Positions 2,088 to 23,319 of a stretch of 48,727 nucleotides of DNA are shown in pieces; positions within the stretch are counted from its first letter, which is position 1, and each line of letters opens with the position of its first letter. The notes under the pieces are model-generated. The model worked only from the letters and a program-made list of their open reading frames with translations. It searched no databases and had not been told where the DNA came from. The position numbers and the translations under genes were made by a program. The stretch lies in IMG/VR virus record IMGVR_UViG_3300031715_000009, positions 1 through 48,727 of that record; one strand, 5' to 3'. Source of the DNA: a virus.

Positions 2088-2836
2088 TGAATCGCTCCTT
2101 TTTCGATCATCTGGATCAAGGCCAAAGCTTCCGAATCAAACAGGTCTTTGGAGGACTCTTTCCCAAACGTTTCTTTGATAAACCATTTGAGTTTGTCCGG
2201 TTCGACTTTTTTCTTTCGGGCAATTTCGTGAAGTTTGGCAAAGAACTTACTTTCCGGGGGCCTTGCTTCATGCGCGATTTCTTCTTTGGATAAAGGCGGT
2301 GTCTCGGTTTTTGTTTCAATCAATTTCGGTTGCGGCATTTTCACCGGCGGTTGTCCTTTCATATCATCGGTCACTTCCTCAGACGGGCATCCCTCATACC
2401 CGGCCAAGATCGCCACGAATCGAAACTTGTTGGACAAGGCTTTCGATCCCGCGCGGGTCTGCGCCATACTCGCCAAGGCATACATCGGTTTATCTTTCCA
2501 TTGGGGTTCGTCGCGCATACAGTAGGCGACACTGCCGCCCACCACTTCCCCGGTCTTATCATTCAATAAATCGCACTTAGCGAAGAACCCTTTTGTTCCA
2601 TCAATGTCGCAAGGTTGCGCGTCTGCGGTTCTTACCGAACAATGGTAAAAAGCTCCAATCGTTTGCCAGTGATGAATTTCAAGGTATCGTTTTCCTCTGA
2701 ATACGAGCGGGGGTTTATCGTTTAAGGTAATGACCCGTTCCAACGCTTGCGCGGCATCGCGAGCCGATAACAGTAAACTTTCCGGCGTTTGGGCTACGAG
2801 TTCTCCTGTTTGTACGTCTAAGACTTCTTTATCCAT
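2084..2836 (-). CDS. Probable phage ssDNA-annealing/recombination protein
   Basis: A 250-aa protein. The first ~155 residues are a compact domain with FRGKRYLEIHHWQTIGAFY, RDEPQWKDKPMYALASMAQTRAGSKAL and FRFVAILAGYEGCPSEE, a pattern I associate with phage recombination proteins next to exonucleases (the ALxSMAQTRAxSKAL and GYEGxPxEE blocks). A Pro-rich linker leads to a helical C-terminal domain (about 195-250). It sits downstream of a PD-(D/E)XK exonuclease and upstream of RusA, as expected for an exonuclease-annealase pair. I cannot separate the RecT, Erf and Sak superfamilies by eye. Strong ribosome site AAGGAGAT. Confidence 0.6.
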   Translation of the reverse strand: MDKEVLDVQTGELVAQTPESLLLSARDAAQALERVITLNDKPPLVFRGKRYLEIHHWQTIGAFYHCSVRTADAQPCDIDGTKGFFAKCDLLNDKTGEVVGGSVAYCMRDEPQWKDKPMYALASMAQTRAGSKALSNKFRFVAILAGYEGCPSEEVTDDMKGQPPVKMPQPKLIETKTETPPLSKEEIAHEARPPESKFFAKLHEIARKKKVEPDKLKWFIKETFGKESSKDLFDSEALALIQMIEKGAIQ

Positions 2837-2945
2837 TCTTATCTCCTTATGAAAACGAGGGGGTAGCGGATAGTTGGAGTACCGCTACGGGTCCATGTTC
2901 TAACAAGTGACTTCAAGGCACCGTCCAACACCCATAACCCCCAAA

Positions 2946-3527
2946 TCATTTGATACTCCGGGGATGGGCCTTCTTGAACCAAGCGTATAAGCCCATGGTA
3001 TTTTCCCATAGATTCGGGTTCATCGGGTCGTAATCGATCAGTCTGAAAGTTCCGTCCTTAAACAGTTGCAAAACCCGAAAAGGTAAAAGCTCGTTACAAT
3101 TTTCGCCCCAAAGCATTTGCTGAGCGGCCCCTTGCAGTTCCGAGGCGGGGTCTACGTCCTTGGAGGTTTTATAGTCTACAATCATATCGTCTAAAACCAA
3201 ATCTAAAGTCCCGGCAAAGTTCAAGCGTTGGCTATACAAGGATATTTCCGTCGCGCAGCGTACGCTTTTTTTGGTTTTAGTCCACCAGGCTTTAAAGCCC
3301 TCGAAGTAGCCCCGGTAGGACTCGTCAAGTGTCTGCTCGTCTAAATTGTCGCCAAGGTATAATTCGATGGCTTTATGCGCCGCGATCCCGCGCGTGGCAA
3401 AATAAGGATCGATGTAAGTCGTGTCTTTGGTGAGGCCCAAGGTTTTAATAATTTCCGTAATTCCGGGTACACGTTTTCCCTCCCAAAAGTATTGATGCTT
3501 TTCCGGTTCTAATATTAAGCCCTCCAT
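2946..3527 (-). CDS. PD-(D/E)XK (Cas4/RecB-like) exonuclease
   Basis: A 193-aa protein with RGIAAHKAIE at 46-55, E94 in ATEISLY, GTLDLVL (D109), IVDYKTSK (D118, K120) and a following Q-rich helix (QGAAQQ, about 132-137). This is the motif II-III order of the PD-(D/E)XK fold, and the length fits single-domain phage exonucleases. It probably resects ends for the adjacent annealing protein. Its start is overlapped by the 28-aa frame 3515-3601. Ribosome site GAAGGG. Confidence 0.85.
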   Translation of the reverse strand: MEGLILEPEKHQYFWEGKRVPGITEIIKTLGLTKDTTYIDPYFATRGIAAHKAIELYLGDNLDEQTLDESYRGYFEGFKAWWTKTKKSVRCATEISLYSQRLNFAGTLDLVLDDMIVDYKTSKDVDPASELQGAAQQMLWGENCNELLPFRVLQLFKDGTFRLIDYDPMNPNLWENTMGLYAWFKKAHPRSIK

Positions 3528-3601
3528 CTTTTTTCCCTTCTAACTGGTTCTGTGTATTTTTCTAATGCTAGCAGAAGCACATTAGTTAATTTTGTAGGCA
3601 T
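3515..3601 (-). CDS. 28-aa putative leader protein upstream of exonuclease
   Basis: Starts MPTKLTNVLLLALEKYTEPV and ends inside the first codons of the exonuclease gene in another frame. The N-terminus is amphipathic with a leucine-rich stretch, the tail is basic. A modest GGGGA site precedes it, and the anti-Shine-Dalgarno hairpin (3609-3644) lies just upstream, so it could be a regulated leader. A longer overlapping frame of 30 codons (3586-3678) is also open. Weak support. Confidence 0.35.
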   Translation of the reverse strand: MPTKLTNVLLLALEKYTEPVRREKRWRA

Positions 3602-3608
3602 AAAGAAT

Positions 3609-3644
3609 CCCCGGTAAGCGTCCAAGGAGGCCGCCTAACGGGGG
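3609..3644 (-). other. Hairpin whose loop shows the anti-Shine-Dalgarno sequence
   Basis: In the leftward transcript the segment folds as an imperfect 10-bp stem (CCCCCGTTAG with CTTACCGGGG, 8 of 10 pairs) closing a 16-base loop that contains CCTCCTT, the core complementary to ribosome binding sites; the plus strand reads AAGGAGG at 3624-3630 with no plus-strand start nearby. It lies 8 bases upstream of the 28-aa leader ORF. It may be part of a longer regulatory RNA with 3714-3871. Confidence 0.4.
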
Positions 3645-3713
3645 ATAACGGGTCATTATTCATTAAGTTAAAGAGCATGGTTAAATTCTTTCTTCTGAAA
3701 CTCCTACAGGGCC

Positions 3714-3871
3714 GGGGGGATACTAGAGTCAACGCGGGGTCCGAAGACCGCTTATGCTCGTCTAGCCCCTTTCCGATCCTTGGTAGGCTCGATTCCTAGA
3801 TAGTAGAGAGTTGTTCAGGACAACACAAATATCAAGCGTTTCGCCGTTCCTCTACACGTTTAGTCTATCTA
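3714..3871 (-). ncRNA. Candidate structured RNA in the 340-base coding gap
   Basis: The gap 3602-3941 has no frame over 30 codons but dense pairing on the leftward transcript. Module 1: 3866-3871 pairs with 3797-3802 and 3850-3855 with 3803-3808 (6 bp each, nearly stacked), enclosing a GCG/CGC hairpin (3836-3844) and a 5-bp GTTGT/ACAAC hairpin (3810-3824). Module 2: 3766-3769 with 3716-3719 and 3761-3765 with 3723-3727, capped inside by a 4-bp GGTC/GACC stem with a C(UUCG)G tetraloop (3738-3749). UUCG is the stable form only when read from the minus strand, the direction of transcription here. No known RNA family recognised. Confidence 0.5.
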
Positions 3872-3941
3872 AGCGATGTTTGTACTTCCTCACTGACAAC
3901 CCCCTCGCGGGAGCTTTAACACCGTGTTACTCGTTATAATG

Positions 3942-5748: not shown

Positions 5749-6699
5749 TTAGCTTTCTCCTTTGTAGGGGCGTATTCCAGCTAACTGGAAACAGGCGTAA
5801 CAGACATCACTTGAAATCATGCGTTTGACCTTACCGCAGTCGTAACACATTTCATCGGCATGGGGTTGGATGATGTCGGCTACCCGGAACCCGACCGATA
5901 GCGTCTGTTTCGGGCAGCTCGTATGGCATTTATGCGCCGGGGCGGTGCGTTGCTCAGGAACATATTTCGACTGGTCGTTGTCCCAGACGTACCCTTCCCG
6001 CCACGTTTGACCCGGCCTGAACATTTCCCCTTCACAGTACGCGCTTGGGGATGATCCGAACGTATAGGACTTGTTACAGGGCAAGCGTTTGGTGGTTTCA
6101 AGTTTCAGGCCGTCCCAGACGTACATTTGACCTTCGGCTAGTTCCTTGACCCGTTTACAGCCGATCTGATTTAACATATCATCCTCTGAGGCCAAGTACA
6201 CCGCCTTATTACGAAAACCCCGGTATAGCGGGTTTCCTTTATGGAAGGCATGGAGTTTCCCCGCTTCAATCCAGACCAAGGCAATCGGGCCATAGAACGC
6301 TGAGAAATCGCGCTTTTTGATCCCTACGATGAGACATTCCGAATCGACGGTATAAGTACCGAACGCCTGATAGTTGGAGATGATCCCGTTATGCGCCCAT
6401 GTGATATTTGTTTCCTTATCGTAAAAAGGATGGGCGTTTTTATCGGTCACGTCCCCCGTGGTGGCTTGCCGGGTATGCCCGATTAAGACCGCGCCGTATT
6501 TAGCGGCGTGACGAATTGCCGGGGCTAGCGTCACCGGAAAAGCGACGAGCGGATTTTGAGCGATTTTGGCAACCCGTACCACACCGTCCACAGACCATCC
6601 GACTCCCGCCGATTCATCCCCGCGCTTTTCGGACAAGCAGCCAAGAGCAATCGTGTACCGCGATTCGATCTTTCCGGTAGCCGCTAGTAGGCCGCACAC
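5749..6699 (-). CDS. Class II (Ntn-type) glutamine amidotransferase with C-terminal zinc ribbon
   Basis: GTG start placing Cys2 as the N-terminal nucleophile (MCGLLAATGK). Family motifs follow in order: RGDESAG (26-32), GHTRQATTG (74-82), NAHPF (88-92), HNG (103-105) and VDSE (118-121), matching the glutaminase domain of GlmS, PurF and AsnB. This domain hydrolyses glutamine and passes on ammonia. The partner synthetase domain is absent; instead the C-terminus has CHTSC and CYDC...CYAC, a likely zinc ribbon. The amidoligase gene lies 2 bases upstream in the same operon, so it may be the ammonia user. 316 aa. Confidence 0.88.
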   Translation of the reverse strand: MCGLLAATGKIESRYTIALGCLSEKRGDESAGVGWSVDGVVRVAKIAQNPLVAFPVTLAPAIRHAAKYGAVLIGHTRQATTGDVTDKNAHPFYDKETNITWAHNGIISNYQAFGTYTVDSECLIVGIKKRDFSAFYGPIALVWIEAGKLHAFHKGNPLYRGFRNKAVYLASEDDMLNQIGCKRVKELAEGQMYVWDGLKLETTKRLPCNKSYTFGSSPSAYCEGEMFRPGQTWREGYVWDNDQSKYVPEQRTAPAHKCHTSCPKQTLSVGFRVADIIQPHADEMCYDCGKVKRMISSDVCYACFQLAGIRPYKGES

Positions 6700-6701
6700 C
6701 G

Positions 6702-7808
6702 TTAAGACCTCACCCGATCTATCAACCTCACACAGTTAGCCGCTACCCACCACGGATTGTTAATCGGCGCAATCACGCCAATGGGTTGTGAATTATCGGG
6801 ATTTAAGGCCGTGACGCGGTAACGGTGTCCGACTTCAACCCCGCCATCTTCCGTTGGGGATATGACCTGTACGGTATCCCCCACACAGTACCCATGAGCA
6901 GGTAAGGGTGGATATACCCGGGCATTGGACCGGGCCGCTTCAAACTCTTGGGACATGCGCTCTAAGACGTTCCTCCACGCGCGGGAATCGGTGGATTCTT
7001 CTCTGGCATGATATTGCATGATCCGTTCACGCTCTTGGAGTTTTTCCAAGGGTTTCCCGAAGGGTTCCAACAGTCCAGCCTTAGACGCTAAAAAGACCGC
7101 CGTTTTAGCGGCGACTTTCTTGGGAACGTCCGGCAGAATAAACGAATCACGCACCAACTTAAAGGATTCTTGCAGGTTCTTTTTTTCTTTCTCTAAGCGG
7201 GAGGCATCAAAGATTAAGGCCCATGAACTCATAGCCATCAAGCGACAAACGCTGATCCATGACAAGAGCCACGTATAGCGGGCAGTGGCCCCCATCAACC
7301 GGATTTCGACGGTACGTATCCCGCCCGGTCTGAACACCTCCACCGGGTTTACCCATTGGTAACGGTCACGGTTACAATGTTTGGACGGATGATATTGCAG
7401 AGCCCCAATCGATTCAGGATTGACGCGCCATGAGCGGCAGTAGGCGTTATCCGTACGTGACGGGGGAACCGCCTTAAATGCGTCGGTTTCAACTTCTCTA
7501 GCCAACTGCACAAACCACTGCGCCCAGTCATGCAACCGCCGGGAACGATTCGCCAGCCCCAAATGCACATGAAATCCACAGGAGGCGTTCACTGTCAGAT
7601 CGGGATCGGTCGCTATCGCCCGGAGGCACCCTAACGATTTCGCCACGTTCGTGACGTGTTCTTTACGGATACGGTATTCGAGTCCTTCGCCATCGACAGA
7701 ACCGTCATGGCCCACTTCCACACCGGGGACATGCACCGAGGCCCGGTGCGTCGCTTCTAGTTCCCATCCTAAAGTAATTTGCGGTAACATCATTTCGCGT
7801 TGATTCAC
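6702..7808 (-). CDS. COOH-NH2 ligase (Amidoligase_2 family) with C-terminal SH3-like domain
   Basis: 368 aa, GTG start overlapping the upstream TGA. Family blocks: GWELEAT (14-20), GHDGSVDGEGLEYRI (33-47), CGFHVHLGL (77-85), RYQWVNP (149-155) and RTVEIRLMGATARYTW (165-180), the glutamine-synthetase-like fold of amidoligases, which join a carboxylate to an amine at the cost of ATP. The E16/E18, D35/E41 and H80/H82 positions fit metal-binding residues. The last ~70 residues (GDTVQVIS...GHRYRVTALN...WWVAANCVRLI) look like an SH3-type barrel. Substrate unknown; pairing with the GATase suggests amide formation from glutamine nitrogen. Confidence 0.85.
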   Translation of the reverse strand: MNQREMMLPQITLGWELEATHRASVHVPGVEVGHDGSVDGEGLEYRIRKEHVTNVAKSLGCLRAIATDPDLTVNASCGFHVHLGLANRSRRLHDWAQWFVQLAREVETDAFKAVPPSRTDNAYCRSWRVNPESIGALQYHPSKHCNRDRYQWVNPVEVFRPGGIRTVEIRLMGATARYTWLLSWISVCRLMAMSSWALIFDASRLEKEKKNLQESFKLVRDSFILPDVPKKVAAKTAVFLASKAGLLEPFGKPLEKLQERERIMQYHAREESTDSRAWRNVLERMSQEFEAARSNARVYPPLPAHGYCVGDTVQVISPTEDGGVEVGHRYRVTALNPDNSQPIGVIAPINNPWWVAANCVRLIDRVRS

Positions 7809-10229: not shown

Positions 10230-10790
10230 ATGGCGTGGATACAATCGCATGAGGAAATAGGCGACCATCCCAAGACGCTTAAACTGGCAGAATTGCTTAA
10301 TATCCCTGTCCCTTATGCCGTTGGTCTAGTGCATTTACTCTGGCATTTTACTTTGAGATATGCTTGGGAAAATGGCGACTTAAGGCGTTATTCTGCGGGA
10401 CAAATCGGGACGGGAGTTAAGTGGGATGGCGATGCACTAGTGTTACTTTCAGCACTTAAAAAATCAGGCTTTTTGACGCGCATGAAAGTGCATGATTGGA
10501 GCGAATACTCAGGGCGTTTAGTACATGACCGACTACGCTATAAGTTAGCGAACACCATCCGTACGGAATCCGTACGTAAACCGTACGTTGACCGTACGTT
10601 GACCGTAGCCAAGAGTAGAAAGATAAGAAAGATAAGACAAGACTTTGACGTCAAAGACTCAACTATATTAAGAGGTGAACCGGAGGAGTCGGCGCTTGGG
10701 CTGGTTAATGGCCCCGCGCCTCCTCCCAAAGCGAGTCATGCGGACAACTGCGCTTGTGAATTGTGCTGGCCTAAAATCTTTCAACGGTAA
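10230..10790 (+). CDS. Phage replication initiator (lambda O-like) with N-terminal winged-helix domain
   Basis: 186 aa. Residues 1-100 have the well-known phage pattern AWIQSHEEIGDHPKTLKLAELLNI, AVGLVHLLWHF, GDLRRYSAGQIG, GDALVLLSALKKSGFLTR, VHDWSEYSGRL, the N-terminal DNA-binding domain of phage replication proteins. The middle is a basic linker whose codons form an 11-bp iteron array, and the end carries CACELCWP. As in lambda gene O, the origin seems to lie inside the gene. No helicase or loader gene is visible nearby, so host DnaB must be recruited otherwise. AGAGGTGA ribosome site. Confidence 0.8.
   Translation: MAWIQSHEEIGDHPKTLKLAELLNIPVPYAVGLVHLLWHFTLRYAWENGDLRRYSAGQIGTGVKWDGDALVLLSALKKSGFLTRMKVHDWSEYSGRLVHDRLRYKLANTIRTESVRKPYVDRTLTVAKSRKIRKIRQDFDVKDSTILRGEPEESALGLVNGPAPPPKASHADNCACELCWPKIFQR
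10558..10612. repeat. Origin iterons: 11-bp tandem repeats inside the initiator gene
   Basis: Five abutting 11-bp units: TCCGTACGGAA, TCCGTACGTAA, ACCGTACGTTG twice, then the degenerate ACCGTAGCCAA. The core CCGTACG contains the palindrome CGTACG. Location in the initiator's linker codons mirrors lambda ori in gene O, where O binds iterons. Probable replication origin. Confidence 0.8.
10613..10680. other. Probable DNA-unwinding element next to the iterons
   Basis: A purine-rich, AT-rich strip directly after the iterons, with GAAAGATAA repeated twice, then a perfect 14-bp palindrome CTTTGACGTCAAAG (10643-10656) and AACTATATTAAGAGG. The iteron-then-AT-rich order matches theta origins of the lambda type. 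Confidence 0.5.
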
Positions 10791-10795
10791 GTGCT

Positions 10796-11287
10796 ATGAC
10801 TGATCCGATACCTGGTGGTGCTGACCCTGCTATAACTGTCCACGACAGGACGGGGTTAAGAACCACCCCTCGTAACCTTGACCGGGCAAAGCTCACCGAC
10901 GCAATCATGCGCCATTGGCCTAACCTAGCGCAAGCCGCTAGGGAGTTAGGGGTCTTAGCCTCATCGTTACACTGGCAGAAGGATCATAACCCGGTGGTCG
11001 CTCGCATTTGTGCAGAAGCCGACGCGAAGGGGTGTGATGCTCTGGAAGCGGTCCTCTACCAGCGAGGTGTCTCAGGCGAACCGTACACGTTCACCGACCG
11101 GATTGCTTACCTTCGCGCACATCGACCGGAGTTGTACGACCGGGTGAAGCGCGTGGAGATCACCGGAACCAGAACACCCCGCGCAGAAGCCGAGGCACGC
11201 GCGAAGCTCGCTGAGGAAGCTATTGACGCTGAGATCGTTGAAGGCTATCGCACTCGTAAAGCACGAAAGGCAGGGCCACCCCCATGA
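10796..11287 (+). CDS. Terminase small subunit-like protein
   Basis: 163 aa. Residues about 30-62 form a helix-turn-helix (LTDAIMRHWPNLAQAARELGVLASSLHWQ). The stretch EPYTFTDRIAYLRAHRPELYDRVKRVEITG (about 100-130) matches the segment in small terminases that ends a DNA-recognition and oligomerisation domain (LKxxxPexYRdR). Arg/Lys-rich tail. It would recognise packaging sites and load TerL, encoded 2.5 kb downstream; the gap between them is unusual. Confidence 0.65.
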   Translation: MTDPIPGGADPAITVHDRTGLRTTPRNLDRAKLTDAIMRHWPNLAQAARELGVLASSLHWQKDHNPVVARICAEADAKGCDALEAVLYQRGVSGEPYTFTDRIAYLRAHRPELYDRVKRVEITGTRTPRAEAEARAKLAEEAIDAEIVEGYRTRKARKAGPPP

Positions 11288-11530: not shown

Positions 11531-12166
11531 ATGAAGCCGGAACGACGCACGGCGCATTTAGCGGGGCTCGCACTTTTTGTGGGGGCCCTCTTTTTTTATG
11601 GAATGACTGCGTCGGTGGCACTCGCTTCGCCGGTGGAAGATGCCAGTTATTACTATTCTGGGGCGAACACCTACGTCTGTGCGTCGACCACGACCGCTCC
11701 GACGATATCCGCGGCGGGACTCTCCGTGACCACGACCGGACTGATTTTAGTAAACCCCGTGGGGTCCGGTGTGAAGTTGGTGATGCTGGACACCGGTGTC
11801 GATATTTTGGCGTCTCCGGCCGGTGCGACGGGACTGTTTCTCGCCTATAACCTGATGAATTCAACAGGCGTGACCGGTGCCCTTCCGCCGGCAACGATTT
11901 CAAGTGCCTTCGTCGGGCAGAGTACGGGGACCTTCGCGAACACCAAAGCCTTGTGTTATAGCTCCGCGCAACTTCCCGCGGTTCCAGTTTTCTTTCGAGC
12001 CTTAGGGGGCACGACGGGAGCTTCCGCCATTGGCGGTGTGCAGTTGATTGACCGAGAGTATCCGATCGGTTCGGTGGTGGTTCCGCCGGGAGGAATCCTT
12101 TCTTTGGGGGCGAGCTCGGCCACTGTGATGATCGCTCATTACACCTGGGTGGAAGTGCCGTTATGA
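11531..12166 (+). CDS. Exported protein of unknown function
   Basis: 211 aa with a long signal peptide (MKPERRTAHLAGLALFVGALFFYGM...SVALA, cleavage likely after ALA). The mature part is strand-rich, Gly/Ser/Thr-rich, low in charge and has three cysteines. It resembles surface or decoration proteins in style. It starts the cassette that leads to GroES-like and zinc miniproteins and ends with ATGA coupling to 12163. It may be a client of those proteins. No family recognised. Confidence 0.7.
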   Translation: MKPERRTAHLAGLALFVGALFFYGMTASVALASPVEDASYYYSGANTYVCASTTTAPTISAAGLSVTTTGLILVNPVGSGVKLVMLDTGVDILASPAGATGLFLAYNLMNSTGVTGALPPATISSAFVGQSTGTFANTKALCYSSAQLPAVPVFFRALGGTTGASAIGGVQLIDREYPIGSVVVPPGGILSLGASSATVMIAHYTWVEVPL

Positions 12167-12483
12167 GCCTTACGCTGCGCAGGACATGGCCGATTTTAGT
12201 GGAGTTAATCGACCGTTACGCGGATGAAAAGAACCCGTTGGGCTTGACGCTAGTAGACACCCAGAAACATTTTGAAGGGAAAGTCCGGCGTGGGAAAGTG
12301 ATGTTGACGGCCGGCCACATGGAATCGGTCAAACCCGGGGACGTAGTGCTTTTTAAAGCGACGGCGGGGTTTACCTTGGACGGCGACCCCGTCGATCCGA
12401 CCAACCCCTTAAAAGGCGAAAAGATGCGGTTTTTAAAAGAGCACGAATGTATCGCCGTCGAAGAGAAATTCGAGGTGGCGTAA
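12163..12483 (+). CDS. GroES (Cpn10)-like co-chaperonin
   Basis: 106 aa, the length of GroES (about 97) plus a few residues. The layout follows the family: RRTWPILVELIDRY (first strands), a gap at about 22-36 where the mobile loop lies, GKVMLTAGHMESVKPGDVVLFK (44-65; compare G-x-V-x-x-x-G...VKxGDxVxF), a roof-like insert, then EKMRFLKEHECIAVEE (86-101; compare the LIMSESDILAIVE end of GroES). Phages such as T4 carry GroES substitutes (gp31) to fold their capsid protein with host GroEL. Here the gene sits just upstream of the packaging genes. No full-length comparison was possible. Confidence 0.6.
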   Translation: MSLTLRRTWPILVELIDRYADEKNPLGLTLVDTQKHFEGKVRRGKVMLTAGHMESVKPGDVVLFKATAGFTLDGDPVDPTNPLKGEKMRFLKEHECIAVEEKFEVA

Positions 12484-12485
12484 AG

Positions 12486-12638
12486 GTGGTGATCTGCGGT
12501 CAATGCAACGGCAACGGAAATTGTATCGGCACCGAATCGACGGACGACATCAAAGACAACGACGAAAGTTTCTTTACGCCGTCGGGGGTCCTGCCGAATA
12601 TCGTCTGTACCCAATGTCAGGGCAAAGGCTATTATTAA
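12486..12638 (+). CDS. DnaJ-type zinc miniprotein 1 (two CxxCxGxG motifs)
   Basis: 50 aa from GTG 12486, behind TAAAGG. Near the start CGQCNGNG and at the end CTQCQGKG, each the CxxCxGxG unit that occurs four times in the DnaJ/Hsp40 cysteine-rich domain. Two units can bind one zinc by pairing. No J-domain, so it cannot stimulate DnaK in the usual way. First of three tandem relatives. Confidence 0.7.
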   Translation: MVICGQCNGNGNCIGTESTDDIKDNDESFFTPSGVLPNIVCTQCQGKGYY

Positions 12639-12818
12639 ATGGCGAGTTTCTTGTGTCCGTACTGTAAAGGGGTCGGTGTGACCTCTGACGGTGACACCGA
12701 AGTCAAAGACCTCAAAACCGGCAAAGTCCATGGGCCTCATGCCGGGGCCCCCTCGGTGTCGATCGGATGTACCAGTTGTAACGGCACCGGGATTGAACGG
12801 GCGCATTCGCCCTTGTGA
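12639..12818 (+). CDS. DnaJ-type zinc miniprotein 2 (two CxxCxGxG motifs)
   Basis: 59 aa, starts right after the previous stop. CPYCKGVG at residues 6-13 and CTSCNGTG at 44-51 flank a Gly/Asp/His-rich arm of about 30 residues, longer than in DnaJ. Shares plan and spacing with the genes on both sides, so tandem duplication is likely. Confidence 0.7.
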   Translation: MASFLCPYCKGVGVTSDGDTEVKDLKTGKVHGPHAGAPSVSIGCTSCNGTGIERAHSPL

Positions 12819-12828
12819 GGAGGTTGTT

Positions 12829-13005
12829 ATGAGCATGGTCTGTACGCAATGCAAAGGCCTTGGCAATGTCGCCGGTCCGACGGGACAAGCGCTCACTGCG
12901 CCGAATGCGTTCACCTTCACCAATGTCACGACCGGTTCGGAATATCCCTGTCCTTCCTGTGGCGGCACCGGGAAGATGAACGCCTTCGGGTCCAACGGGT
13001 TTTAA
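12829..13005 (+). CDS. DnaJ-type zinc miniprotein 3 (two CxxCxGxG motifs)
   Basis: 58 aa behind a perfect TGAGGAGGT ribosome site. CTQCKGLG at residues 5-12 and CPSCGGTG at 41-48, with a Thr/Asn-rich arm between. The strong ribosome site suggests this is the most abundant member. Role unknown: zinc-dependent thiol chaperone, assembly aid or virion part are all possible. Confidence 0.72.
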   Translation: MSMVCTQCKGLGNVAGPTGQALTAPNAFTFTNVTTGSEYPCPSCGGTGKMNAFGSNGF

Positions 13006-13007
13006 GG

Positions 13008-13400
13008 ATGACTTCGAACATGATGATGCAGGCGGTCGTCTTACAAGGCGAAGCTTCCAACGACTCCGGTCTTGTGAAGCTGGCCGGGTTCATTACGAAC
13101 TCCGGGGACATTTCCAAGAAGTGCGAGGAAGTCTTTCCGCCGGACTCCGGCTGGCGTAAACTGGCGCATACCGAATCGAACGGCCGCATGATGTTACTGG
13201 CCCTGCAATCGCCGACCGACGCCCCCTACATCCCAAGGAAAGTGGCTGTGTATCGCCGGGAAGACCACAAATTCTTTGTCGATTTATCCTTCATCTTCCA
13301 GCGTTTAGCTATCGCGACGATCGACGATGTCACTGTCTCGGAATCGCACGGGTCTTTTTCCATGGTCCTGCTTTATACGGAGCGGTCAACCGATGCCTGA
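13008..13400 (+). CDS. 130-aa hypothetical protein
   Basis: Start MTSNMMMQAVVLQG at 13008; the open frame reaches further upstream but would overlap the zinc gene. Predicted alternating strands and helices (KVAVYRREDHKFFVDLSFIFQRLAIATIDDVTV) with the end overlapping the next gene by 8 bases. No family seen. It lies between zinc miniproteins and the NFACT-R-like protein and presumably works with them. Confidence 0.65.
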   Translation: MTSNMMMQAVVLQGEASNDSGLVKLAGFITNSGDISKKCEEVFPPDSGWRKLAHTESNGRMMLLALQSPTDAPYIPRKVAVYRREDHKFFVDLSFIFQRLAIATIDDVTVSESHGSFSMVLLYTERSTDA

Positions 13401-13776
13401 TTTAATGACGGAACTGAAATCCCCGGCGCCCCGCAAAAACGATCGACAGATTCTCTCCTTTCAGAAACAGGGTTACGTGATCCAACTCGGGCAGAATTCT
13501 TACTCGAACGAAAAGCTGGTCTTGGAACACCCGCACAAAGACTGTCTCTGGATGCACGCCATGGCCGCCAAAGGGTCGCACCTCGTGTTATGCCGGCACC
13601 AAAAGCAAGATCCGTCTTCCGACGTCCTGCAGTTTGCCGCCCAACTCGCACTTAAATATTCGCATTCCCAAGCGCGATCCGTGTCGGTCGCGCTTCTAAA
13701 AGATGTCTCGAAAGAGGACCATTTGGCGATCGGTATTTTTAAGGTGCACGACCCGATGACCCTGGAGGTCGCATGA
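13393..13776 (+). CDS. Stand-alone NFACT-R (DUF814)-like RNA-binding protein
   Basis: 127 aa. Blocks VIQLGQNSYSNEKLVLEH (29-46), DCLWMHAMAAKGSHLVLCRH (50-69) and FAAQLALKYSHSQARSVSVALLKDV (81-105) follow the NFACT-R pattern G-x-N-x-x-x-N..., D-x-W-x-HA...G-SH-V-V-x and AA-x-LA-x-x-YS-x-A-R...V. NFACT-R is the C-terminal domain of RqcH/NEMF, which binds tRNA at stalled 60S/50S subunits. The other RqcH domains (NFACT-N, HhH, coiled coil) are absent. Overlaps the TerL start by 4 bases. Family call is from motif reading only, moderately sure. Confidence 0.6.
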   Translation: MPDLMTELKSPAPRKNDRQILSFQKQGYVIQLGQNSYSNEKLVLEHPHKDCLWMHAMAAKGSHLVLCRHQKQDPSSDVLQFAAQLALKYSHSQARSVSVALLKDVSKEDHLAIGIFKVHDPMTLEVA

Positions 13777-15461
13777 CCCAAGCCATCGAAAAGTTGCTCT
13801 GGCGCGAAAAGGAATTGTTTGAAGCCGATCCCGTCGGACTCTTAAAACGCGGGTACTTGATGATCCGCGATAAAGATGCGAATTTGATTCCTTTGGTGTT
13901 AAACTCGACGCAACAAAAAATTGTGGACGCGCTCCAGGCCCGACGGCGCTTGGGTCGACCGGTGTTTTTGTTCGTCTTAAAAGCCAGGCAGCTAGGCGTG
14001 ACCACCTTGGCGCAGGCGTTGATCTATGCCTTCTCCTCCCAACGACCGAATGTCAACGCCTTGGACGTCGCCGATGACGTCGACGGCGCCACCTACATTT
14101 TTAAAATGAACGAACTCTTCCATGAACAAATGCTGGCCAAACACCCGCATCTGGTTCCCACCGCTAAACGCATGGACGAACGCAGACTCGAGTTTGACGG
14201 CACCTATTCGCGGATCATGATCGATACCGCGAGAAACGCCAAAGCCGGCCGGAAATATACCTTGAAACTCGTGCATTTATCCGAAGTCGCCTTCTACGAA
14301 AATTTCAAGGAACTGATGCAAGCACTCACCCCCGCTATTCCTAAAACCGAAGATACGATGGTGCTCTTGGAATCGACCGCTAACGGCATTAACGAAGTTT
14401 CGAAATTCTATTGGCGGATCAAAAAGGCGTACGAGGCAGACCCCGAAAACACCGACTGGATACCGCTGTTTTGTAGTTGGCGCGAACACGCCGAATATTC
14501 CCGGCCCTTCTATAACGAGGGCATCAAACAAAAATTTGTGGCATCGCTATCGGAAAAAGAAAAAAAGATTATGGCGGAACACTCACTCACCTTGGAACAA
14601 ATGAACTGGCGTCGAAGAGAAATTGAAGATTCCTTCGGAGATGACGATGAAAAGTTCCAGGTGGAGTACCCCTTAACCGACAAAGAAGCGTTCATTTCGA
14701 CCTCGCAACGGGTGTTCCCGGAACGGCTCACCGCTCCGCAGAAAAGTAATTTAGGCGCCCCGAAGTTGCGCGGGGAAATCGAACTGGTGGACCGACGACC
14801 GGCGTTTGTTTCTGATGCGAAAGGATTCTTGCGCATTTATCAGGAAGCGCAGAGTGAAGAAAAATATGTGATCGGGGCCGATACCTGCGAGTCGGCCTTA
14901 ACGCATGACGAAGCCTGCGCGCAGGTGATCAAACGTTCGACCTGGACGCAAGTCGCGCATTTACACGGGCACATGAACCCGGACGATTTTGCGCAAAGGT
15001 TGTTCGCGCTCGGTCTTTACTATAACCGGGCGCTGCTGGCTCCTGAACGTAACGGGCCGGGGTTGGTGGTGGTGACGTATCTGGCCAACAAACATTATCC
15101 GAATCTCTGCCGGCAGAAAAAGGCCGTGGTCTCGGACGCCGGCGTCTGGAGTGAGACCGAGGAATTCGGGTTTCATACCAACGTCAAGACGAAGCCGATG
15201 GTGATCGACCAACTGCAGAACGCGCTTCGCACGTTACTGATCGTATTGCATGATGAGTTGACCTTGGAGGAGTTGGAAACCTATGTCGTGAAGCAGGTCT
15301 CAAAAGAAGGGCACGTCGATATGGGCGCCGAAGAAGGATGCCGAGACGACTGCACAATCGCTTTAGCTATTTCTGTTCATTACTGTCATACGATTGCTTC
15401 AGTCCACGCGCCCTTAACGGGTCTGCCGCAATTTCATTCGCAGTCCAAGACAGGTTACTAG
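13773..15461 (+). CDS. terL: Terminase large subunit
   Basis: 562 aa. ATPase: Walker A-like VLKARQLGVTT (69-78, the KxRQxGxT variant), Walker B KLVHLSE (165-171, acidic E171), coupling motif LLESTANG (198-205). Nuclease: VIGADTCE (D370), LAPERNGPG (E425) and RDDCTIA (D525-D526), the RNase-H-like acidic triad. It pumps DNA into the prohead and cuts the concatemer. ATGA-coupled to the NFACT-R-like gene. The short Pro-rich protein follows after 9 bases. Confidence 0.95.
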   Translation: MTQAIEKLLWREKELFEADPVGLLKRGYLMIRDKDANLIPLVLNSTQQKIVDALQARRRLGRPVFLFVLKARQLGVTTLAQALIYAFSSQRPNVNALDVADDVDGATYIFKMNELFHEQMLAKHPHLVPTAKRMDERRLEFDGTYSRIMIDTARNAKAGRKYTLKLVHLSEVAFYENFKELMQALTPAIPKTEDTMVLLESTANGINEVSKFYWRIKKAYEADPENTDWIPLFCSWREHAEYSRPFYNEGIKQKFVASLSEKEKKIMAEHSLTLEQMNWRRREIEDSFGDDDEKFQVEYPLTDKEAFISTSQRVFPERLTAPQKSNLGAPKLRGEIELVDRRPAFVSDAKGFLRIYQEAQSEEKYVIGADTCESALTHDEACAQVIKRSTWTQVAHLHGHMNPDDFAQRLFALGLYYNRALLAPERNGPGLVVVTYLANKHYPNLCRQKKAVVSDAGVWSETEEFGFHTNVKTKPMVIDQLQNALRTLLIVLHDELTLEELETYVVKQVSKEGHVDMGAEEGCRDDCTIALAISVHYCHTIASVHAPLTGLPQFHSQSKTGY

Positions 15462-15470
15462 GGAGGCTCT

Positions 15471-15824
15471 ATGAGTGAACTATCCGATATGGCCGCTGAG
15501 ATTCAGTCCGCGGAAGACGCGTTACGCGCGCGCATTGAAAAATTGTTCGGGGCGTTTCACACGACCGATTTTGCCGCGGAATTTTCACAGTGGATGGCGG
15601 CGCACGATAAGATCAGGGTGTTGGCGAGTCTTCAAAACGCTCCGCCGGCGAAACCCACTCCGGTGATTCCGTTTCCGACTCCGCCGCCGCCGGTTCAACC
15701 GCCGCCGCCGGTTCAACCGCCGCCGCCGGTTCAACCGACTCCGCCGCCTCCTCCGGTTCAACCGACTCCGCCGCCTCCTCCGGTTCAACCGCCGCCGCCG
15801 GTCACCGAAAAGCCCGCGGCGTAG
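15471..15824 (+). CDS. Proline-repeat protein
   Basis: 117 aa. Residues 1-55 form a helical domain (MSELSDMAAEIQSAEDALRARIEKLF); the second half is (PPPPVQ) and (TPPPPPVQ) repeats that should form a stiff polyproline-II rod. Long proline runs stall ribosomes without EF-P, so expression may depend on it. Perhaps a head-proximal spacer; function unknown. GGGAGG ribosome site. Confidence 0.7.
   Translation: MSELSDMAAEIQSAEDALRARIEKLFGAFHTTDFAAEFSQWMAAHDKIRVLASLQNAPPAKPTPVIPFPTPPPPVQPPPPVQPPPPVQPTPPPPPVQPTPPPPPVQPPPPVTEKPAA
15677..15802 (+). repeat. Tandem repeats encoding PPPPVQ units
   Basis: Repeats of 15-24 bases based on CCGCCGCCGGTTCAA and ACTCCGCCGCCTCCTCCGGTTCAA. GC-rich, prone to copy-number change and assembly collapse. 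Confidence 0.85.
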
Positions 15825-17192: not shown

Positions 17193-17369
17193 ATGGGACA
17201 GAATCAGCCAAGAAGTGAATCGTTGCCGGAAGAAGGAAAGCATCATATTAGTCAGACACTGAAGAACCGGTTCGGTGCGACGTTTAAGGAACGAACCCAT
17301 AACGTGGTCAATCCTAAGGCGACCGGGCAAGGTGCGGCGTCAGGAAAAAATCCCGGTAAACCCACCTAA
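17193..17369 (+). CDS. 58-aa basic disordered protein, paralogue B
   Basis: MGQNQPRSESLPEEGKHHI then the shared LKNRFGATFKERTHN motif, ending GKNPGKPT. GGAGG ribosome site (ACGGAGGTA). TAATG overlap with portal suggests co-translation. Confidence 0.6.
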   Translation: MGQNQPRSESLPEEGKHHISQTLKNRFGATFKERTHNVVNPKATGQGAASGKNPGKPT

Positions 17370-22425: not shown

Positions 22426-23319
22426 ATGTATACATCAGCGAACTGGTCGGACCTGTTAGAACCCGGTCTGGCCACGGTGTACGTCGATACGTTCTATCAG
22501 GAACAGCAGCAGGCGATTGCCCCGATTTTGTATTCGGTCAAGGAATCGCGGAAAGCCCAGGAACACGACTTAGAAATGGGAGATGTGGCGGACTTTGCGC
22601 CGTTTACGGGAACCATTCCCTACGACGATACCGGGGAAGGCTACAAGACGAACTACGTCCATGCGGAGTTTGCTCGGGGCATGAAAATCGAACGGAAGCT
22701 GGTCGATGACGACTTGTACGATGTCATTAACCGAGTGCCCCAGCGCTTGGGACTGGCCGCCTTCCGGAAACGTGAAACCGATGCCGCTTCCTTATTTAAT
22801 AATGTGGTGGTCGCCGGGATCACTGGTGGTGACGGGGTCGCTTTAGGGTCCACGGCGCATCCTTCGAACAATGGGGGAGCAAGTCAATCGAACCTCGGTA
22901 CCACCGCGTTATCCCCGACGGAACTCGACACCGCGCGTATCAACATGGTGAAGTACAAATCAAACCGCGGAAATCCTCTGACGATTCAACCGGACATGAT
23001 TATTGTGCCCGTAGATTTACAGAGCTACGCCTACGAAATCATCTCGTCTCGAGGTAAAGTAGATACCGCCCAGAACAACGTGAACTTCCATTACGGGAGT
23101 TACAAGCTTGTCGTCTGGCCGAACTACCTGTCCTCGACGACACGGTGGTTCTTGGTTGATTCAAAACTGATGAAAATGTACCTGAAATGGTGGGACCGTA
23201 TCTTGCCGCAGTTTTTTAAGGATACGGATTTTTCCACCTTAGTCGCCCTCTTTGCCGGTTATATGCGTTATAGCTACGGCTGGAGCGATTGGCGGTGGTT
23301 ATATGCTGAGAACGCTTAA
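22426..23319 (+). CDS. Major capsid protein, HK97 fold (Mu gpT-like)
   Basis: 297 aa. Characteristic blocks: VKESRKAQEHDLEMGDVADFAPFTGTIPYDDTGEGYKT (about 39-76), EFARGMKIERKLVDDDLYDVINRVPQRLGLAAFRKRETDAASLFNN (about 80-126), then LGSTAHP (about 142) and DMIIVPVDLQSYAYEII. This order is the Mu-type (gpT) major head subunit, 300 aa. No signal peptide, no delta-domain. GAGGAGG ribosome site. Confidence 0.9.
   Translation: MYTSANWSDLLEPGLATVYVDTFYQEQQQAIAPILYSVKESRKAQEHDLEMGDVADFAPFTGTIPYDDTGEGYKTNYVHAEFARGMKIERKLVDDDLYDVINRVPQRLGLAAFRKRETDAASLFNNVVVAGITGGDGVALGSTAHPSNNGGASQSNLGTTALSPTELDTARINMVKYKSNRGNPLTIQPDMIIVPVDLQSYAYEIISSRGKVDTAQNNVNFHYGSYKLVVWPNYLSSTTRWFLVDSKLMKMYLKWWDRILPQFFKDTDFSTLVALFAGYMRYSYGWSDWRWLYAENA

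Follow-up and report, generated by a model that had tools for sequence, protein, structure and literature searches.

Three consecutive genes of a tailed phage (positions 12486-13005) each encode a protein of 50-59 amino acids carrying exactly two CxxCxGxG motifs, and the products, here named Zn1, Zn2 and Zn3, are proposed to be half DnaJ domains that would hold one zinc each and serve as small protein-binding adaptors, with a putative partner for every copy, made from an operon of the packaging region; the chances of this reading are put at about even. The window analyzed corresponds to a complete IMG/VR record (48,727 bases), representing a tailed-phage genome or a fragment of one. Zn1 (12486..12638, + strand; 50 amino acids) begins at GTG and presents the motifs CGQCNGNG and CTQCQGKG on either side of an arm of 29 residues; Zn2 (12639..12818, +; 59 amino acids) begins at ATG with CPYCKGVG and CTSCNGTG flanking 30 residues; and Zn3 (12829..13005, +; 58 amino acids), also with an ATG start, has CTQCKGLG and CPSCGGTG flanking 28 residues. 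The open reading frames and the motif scan thus agree with the original prediction of three adjacent genes with two motifs apiece, but the arms, which had been described as differing in length, proved to be nearly equal when counted. No other recognisable feature was found in the three proteins. A six-frame scan of the record placed six of its seven CxxCxGxG matches within this region, and 60 shuffles of the record gave a mean of 0.28 matches and a maximum of two.

The junctions from the upstream 106-aa gene through Zn3 look like those of an operon. The 106-aa gene ends two bases before Zn1, the stop codon of Zn1 is followed without a gap by the ATG of Zn2, and Zn3 starts 10 bases after Zn2, preceded by a strong Shine-Dalgarno sequence (GAGGAGG); a search of the + strand for promoter- or terminator-like sites between 12163 and 13776 returned none. 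An antisense open reading frame of 259 amino acids (12216-12995, - strand) was rejected as a shadow: its codon-position G+C is flat (0.52, 0.52, 0.59), unlike the + strand genes, where the third position is raised. A sister contig (IMGVR_UViG_3300031823_000107) is 99.4% identical across the part spanning the trio, with Zn1 and Zn3 unchanged as proteins and one amino-acid change in Zn2; this amounts to 0-1 differences per gene, too few for a test of selection. Searches for direct homologues of Zn2 and Zn3 found this near-identical contig alone, and tblastn of cultured phages with the trio proteins gave weak, motif-driven matches only.

No named family takes in the trio, which on the predictions described below would belong to the DnaJ-type zinc structural class. 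The J-domain profile (PF00226) matched nothing in the whole record at E<=1, the same search being positive in 12 of 14 control genomes, and each chain carries two CxxCxGxG motifs against the four per chain of the DnaJ/Hsp40 type I proteins. With the DnaJ cysteine-rich domain profile (PF00684; cut-off 32.7 bits), the three proteins scored 10.3, 15.9 and 17.9 bits, and a genome search of the record with this profile yielded no match. The best scores with the Anti-TRAP families, 19.4 bits (PF15777, cut-off 32) and 20.9 bits (NF058604, cut-off 65), lie below both cut-offs; Zn1 reached 19.6 bits with the BSD2 family (PF25436, cut-off 27), in which there are four motifs rather than two. Anti-TRAP of Bacillus (AT, RtpA) has some of the same features, being a protein of about 53 amino acids that lacks a J-domain and contains exactly two CxxCxGxG motifs; it requires zinc, forms a trimer and works by binding another protein (PMC2896485), and its fold is among those matched by the Zn3 model. 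Its motifs, however, are about 14 residues apart, compared to 36-38 in Zn1-3, and it differs further in its C-terminal helical region, its single gene and its known target, TRAP. BSD2 and ZnJ2 (PF25436) are likewise standalone DnaJ-type zinc domains that lack a J-domain, but these chloroplast assembly chaperones are eukaryotic and have four motifs.

Two-motif modules also occur inside larger phage proteins. The DNA polymerases of HMO-2011-type phages contain a two-CxxCxGxG "partial DnaJ" insert (PMC9038755, PMC6918029), which is part of the polymerase whereas Zn1-3 are free miniproteins. In Xanthomonas phage PhiXhv-2, a 162-aa protein with a two-motif zinc module (locus L008, positions 154-642) has its gene immediately upstream of that for the large terminase; it is labelled "anti-TRAP", and the copy of a relative "terminase small subunit". 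The original prediction had allowed that fusion to a J-domain or to ribosomal or tRNA enzymes would indicate a different role; this was borne out in part, the module lying inside other proteins, namely the 162-aa Xanthomonas phage protein, the HMO-2011-type polymerases (PMC9038755) and lambda Q; its presence within such proteins points to a general module rather than one specific to chaperones.

The predicted fold was derived from an alignment of 48 miniproteins, consisting of Zn1-3, the Zn2 of the sister contig and 44 phage miniproteins. All eight C and G positions of the two motifs are invariant in this alignment, although the 44 were gathered with a pattern demanding those residues, so that the invariance speaks more for a uniform spacing and form than for conservation arrived at independently. 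With the alignment as input, AlphaFold2 modelled Zn3 as two beta-hairpins, one per motif, at residues 2-15 and 38-51 (block pLDDT of 78 and 83), and left the arm between them unstructured (residues 19-35, pLDDT below 50); the model as a whole, built without zinc, has a mean pLDDT of 64.6 and a pTM of 0.42. The top Foldseek matches of this model in the PDB were BSD2, which ranked first, Anti-TRAP (2bx9, 1.2 A rmsd), the DnaJ cysteine-rich domain, the zinc module of UvrA and lambda Q, all of one structural class; their E-values run from 0.085 to 1 with none below 0.05, as is expected for a protein of only 58 residues. Small uncharacterised phage proteins were also frequent among the matches to viral models. 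A profile of the 48-member alignment retrieved from the PDB the zinc domain of DnaJ (1exk, E=5.9e-8) and Anti-TRAP (3lcz, E=9.6e-5). The DnaJ cysteine-rich domain thus has both the motif and the predicted knuckle fold in common with Zn1-3, but in DnaJ four motifs form two zinc sites and are joined to a J-domain. Given that ratio, and given that Anti-TRAP is zinc-dependent with two motifs, the likeliest prediction for Zn1-3 is a single zinc ion in each chain. The idea that the three are halves of a DnaJ zinc domain, freed of the J-domain, is favored by the motif content, the monomer model of Zn3, the Foldseek matches and the PF00226 search.

That the trio arose by tandem duplication with divergence, as originally suggested, is plausible. 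The adjacency of the genes and the spacing make such an origin likely, but outside the motifs the similarity of the arms is no better than that of shuffled arms (P = 0.09, 0.54 and 0.58). Duplication cannot be demonstrated from arms that are no more alike than this, and paralogy judged by arm likeness was undetectable.

Genes of DNA replication, packaging and the virion lie around the trio. A replication initiator (at 10230) is followed by a probable terminase small subunit (10796..11287, +; phrog_4044, weak at E=6e-4), and downstream of Zn3 are a 130-aa gene with no family match (13008..13400, +), a standalone NFACT-R domain protein (13327..13776, +; PF05670, E=1.2e-10, above cut-off), the terminase large subunit (13773..15461, +; phrog_2, E=1.6e-15, with tblastn matches to many phage terminases), the portal (at 17369) and a capsid/protease gene (at 22426). 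The NFACT-R domain is otherwise found in ribosome quality-control proteins; its gene here, which is also present in the sister contig and for which an ATG at about 13393 is the likelier start, directly precedes the large terminase gene. The 106-aa gene upstream of Zn1 (12163..12483, +) has a weak, unconfirmed likeness to GroES/Cpn10 (Pfam E=0.026 and PHROG E=0.064, both short of cut-off). It was considered as a sign of a chaperone module and rejected, as a Pfam search of the record gave no match, no PDB relative was found and its model was poor (pLDDT 39).

With the trio lying between two terminase genes, an explanation as virion-assembly chaperones has to be weighed; like BSD2 and ZnJ2, Zn1-3 would hold new head or terminase proteins until assembly, perhaps in the form of the hetero-oligomeric zinc chaperone that the original prediction had suggested. 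The first rank of BSD2 among the structural matches of Zn3 is in keeping with this, as is the ability of ZnJ2, a holding chaperone whose DnaJ-type zinc domain comes without a J-domain, to prevent aggregation in vitro (PMC5818400). In other phages, a miniprotein gene follows the portal gene (locus L092), an array described below lies between portal and head-morphogenesis genes, and a GroES-like neighbor, weak as that match is, would suit a chaperone. Nevertheless, BSD2 and ZnJ2 have four motifs where Zn1-3 have two, the GroES-like match was not reproduced, and related packaging modules do without such proteins: none was found near the terminase relatives at 80 loci, many of them short upstream. 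Similar miniproteins are moreover numerous elsewhere in phage genomes, for example near DNA polymerase, recombination and integrase genes, and a chaperone role for the trio is considered unlikely.

These other miniproteins were found with a DNA pattern that spelled the first motif in a single codon variant and allowed a limited range of arm lengths, and that matched at least 120 loci in IMG/VR; among the matches listed, about 63 encode a two-motif protein of 90 amino acids or less, one of these having four motifs. Small two-motif phage proteins, for which the original prediction had proposed a search, are therefore common as single genes and represent an ordinary, already known kind of domain. 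Unnamed as they are, they resemble Zn1-3 in size (50-90 amino acids), in their two motifs with invariant C and G residues and in their arms, but nearly all are encoded singly; pairs were seen in L094 and L132 only among the approximately 63 loci listed. Among 106 genes neighboring the loci, the most frequent PHROG matches were DNA polymerase, integrase and recombination proteins, and a link of the class to packaging is thus not general.

This proximity of many related proteins to replication genes also accords with a role in transcription, in which Zn1-3 would act on RNA polymerase or DNA as the zinc module of lambdoid Q does. Zn2 matched the Q-like antitermination family phrog_6060 weakly (E=2.5e-4), and lambda Q structures were retrieved with the Zn3 model, but no full-length match to Q antitermination proteins was obtained; the matches to phrog_6060 and phrog_127 are confined to the surroundings of the motifs, other Q domains are absent and the arms have no visible conserved basic stretch. 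A function as nucleic-acid or transcription factors is accordingly rated as distinctly improbable.

Tandem sets were sought in two further scans for motifs across gene borders, which mostly returned long multi-motif proteins but also some true tandem genes, namely a pair in each of L225 and L269, four in L233 and nine in L229, for a total of four tandem pairs (L094, L132, L225, L269). The nine genes of L229 (positions 2437-3895 of IMGVR_UViG_3300048927_000355, a phiAsp2-like phage) encode proteins of 47-65 residues with 7 or 8 cysteines each and are coupled through overlaps (ATGA, GTGA or TGATG); identity between the final two copies is 69%, with a dN/dS of approximately 0.45 over 55 codons. 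The array is located between a portal gene (phrog_776, E 4e-156) and head-morphogenesis genes, and a head-morphogenesis protein there (L229:3892-5529) seems by eye to have an intein-like (Hint) insertion. In the cultured relative phiAsp2, the portal of which is 72% identical to that of L229, the same gap holds only Pas5, an unrelated hydrophobic protein of 28 amino acids, and the array is on that account regarded as an optional insertion. The phage of L233 (IMGVR_UViG_3300036861_000610, L426-L429; 148 kb) has at least 11 standalone DnaJ-type miniproteins, clustered and scattered, with the tandem four at 12.7-13.6 kb. As with Zn1-3, both arrays consist of adjacent miniprotein genes with a common zinc scaffold; they differ in that their phages are unrelated and their nine and four copies have three to four CxxC knuckles each, approximating a full DnaJ domain, compared to two motifs and three copies in Zn1-3. 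Among the matches listed from a pattern scan of bacterial genomes (at least 119 loci) there were no tandem miniproteins. Tandem sets seem to be rarer than single genes yet recurrent in unrelated phages, and apparently have not been described; the open literature searched contained no description of such phage arrays.

Multiplicity of this kind, up to nine genes rich in cysteine in one array and at least 11 copies in a single phage, would fit zinc buffers which, in the manner of metallothioneins, sequester or store the metal while infection proceeds, with copy number setting the dose. Each of Zn1-3, however, has just its four motif cysteines, the strict conservation of two glycines per motif suggests a fold rather than simple chelation, and a buffer has no need for divergent arms; this explanation is held to be very unlikely.

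As adaptors, Zn1-3 would each bind one zinc through the four cysteines of their two knuckles, giving a single DnaJ-type center like that of Anti-TRAP, and the 28-30 residues separating the knuckles would form a flexible loop. Co-produced from their putative operon between the probable small and the large terminase genes, the three would most likely bind other proteins, either helping assembly or inhibiting or modulating some protein of the host or the phage. Loops and tails that differ on a common zinc scaffold would provide a separate partner for each copy; a constant scaffold with unrelated arms of equal length fits small binders of this sort, Anti-TRAP being itself a binding inhibitor, though partner specificity is a guess because the modelled arm is disordered. 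The trio is probably accessory cargo rather than a core part of packaging, as no such proteins were seen near the terminase at the 80 loci, many of them short upstream, and phiAsp2 lacks the array of L229, and its position need not signify a packaging role given that comparable proteins of other phages are encoded next to replication genes. It is also conceivable, albeit doubtful, that phages repeatedly build arrays of zinc mini-binders (the trio, the four of L233 and the nine of L229) with copies diverged toward different host or phage partners, which would constitute a kind of accessory locus not yet described. Small zinc proteins tend to be dismissed as hypothetical; if the arrays are diversified binders, they would be a ready supply of phage proteins acting as modulators of host or assembly machinery, and the copies within an array would show specificity changing on a fixed scaffold of 50 residues. 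If they are assembly chaperones, viruses would have zinc chaperones free of a J-domain. The trio is unusual as a tandem set, and what most merits attention is that arrays recur among phages unrelated to one another.

Two other features of the window were observed. On the - strand at 5749-7808, a glutamine-amidotransferase-like gene adjoins an amidoligase-like gene (phrog_4736, E=2.8e-19; phrog_2443, E=2.4e-5), possibly forming a pair that modifies peptides or proteins. At 15471-15824 (+) is a proline-rich protein with PPPPPVQP repeats that is shorter in the sister contig (88 residues, compared to 117 in the window), a variation in repeat number.
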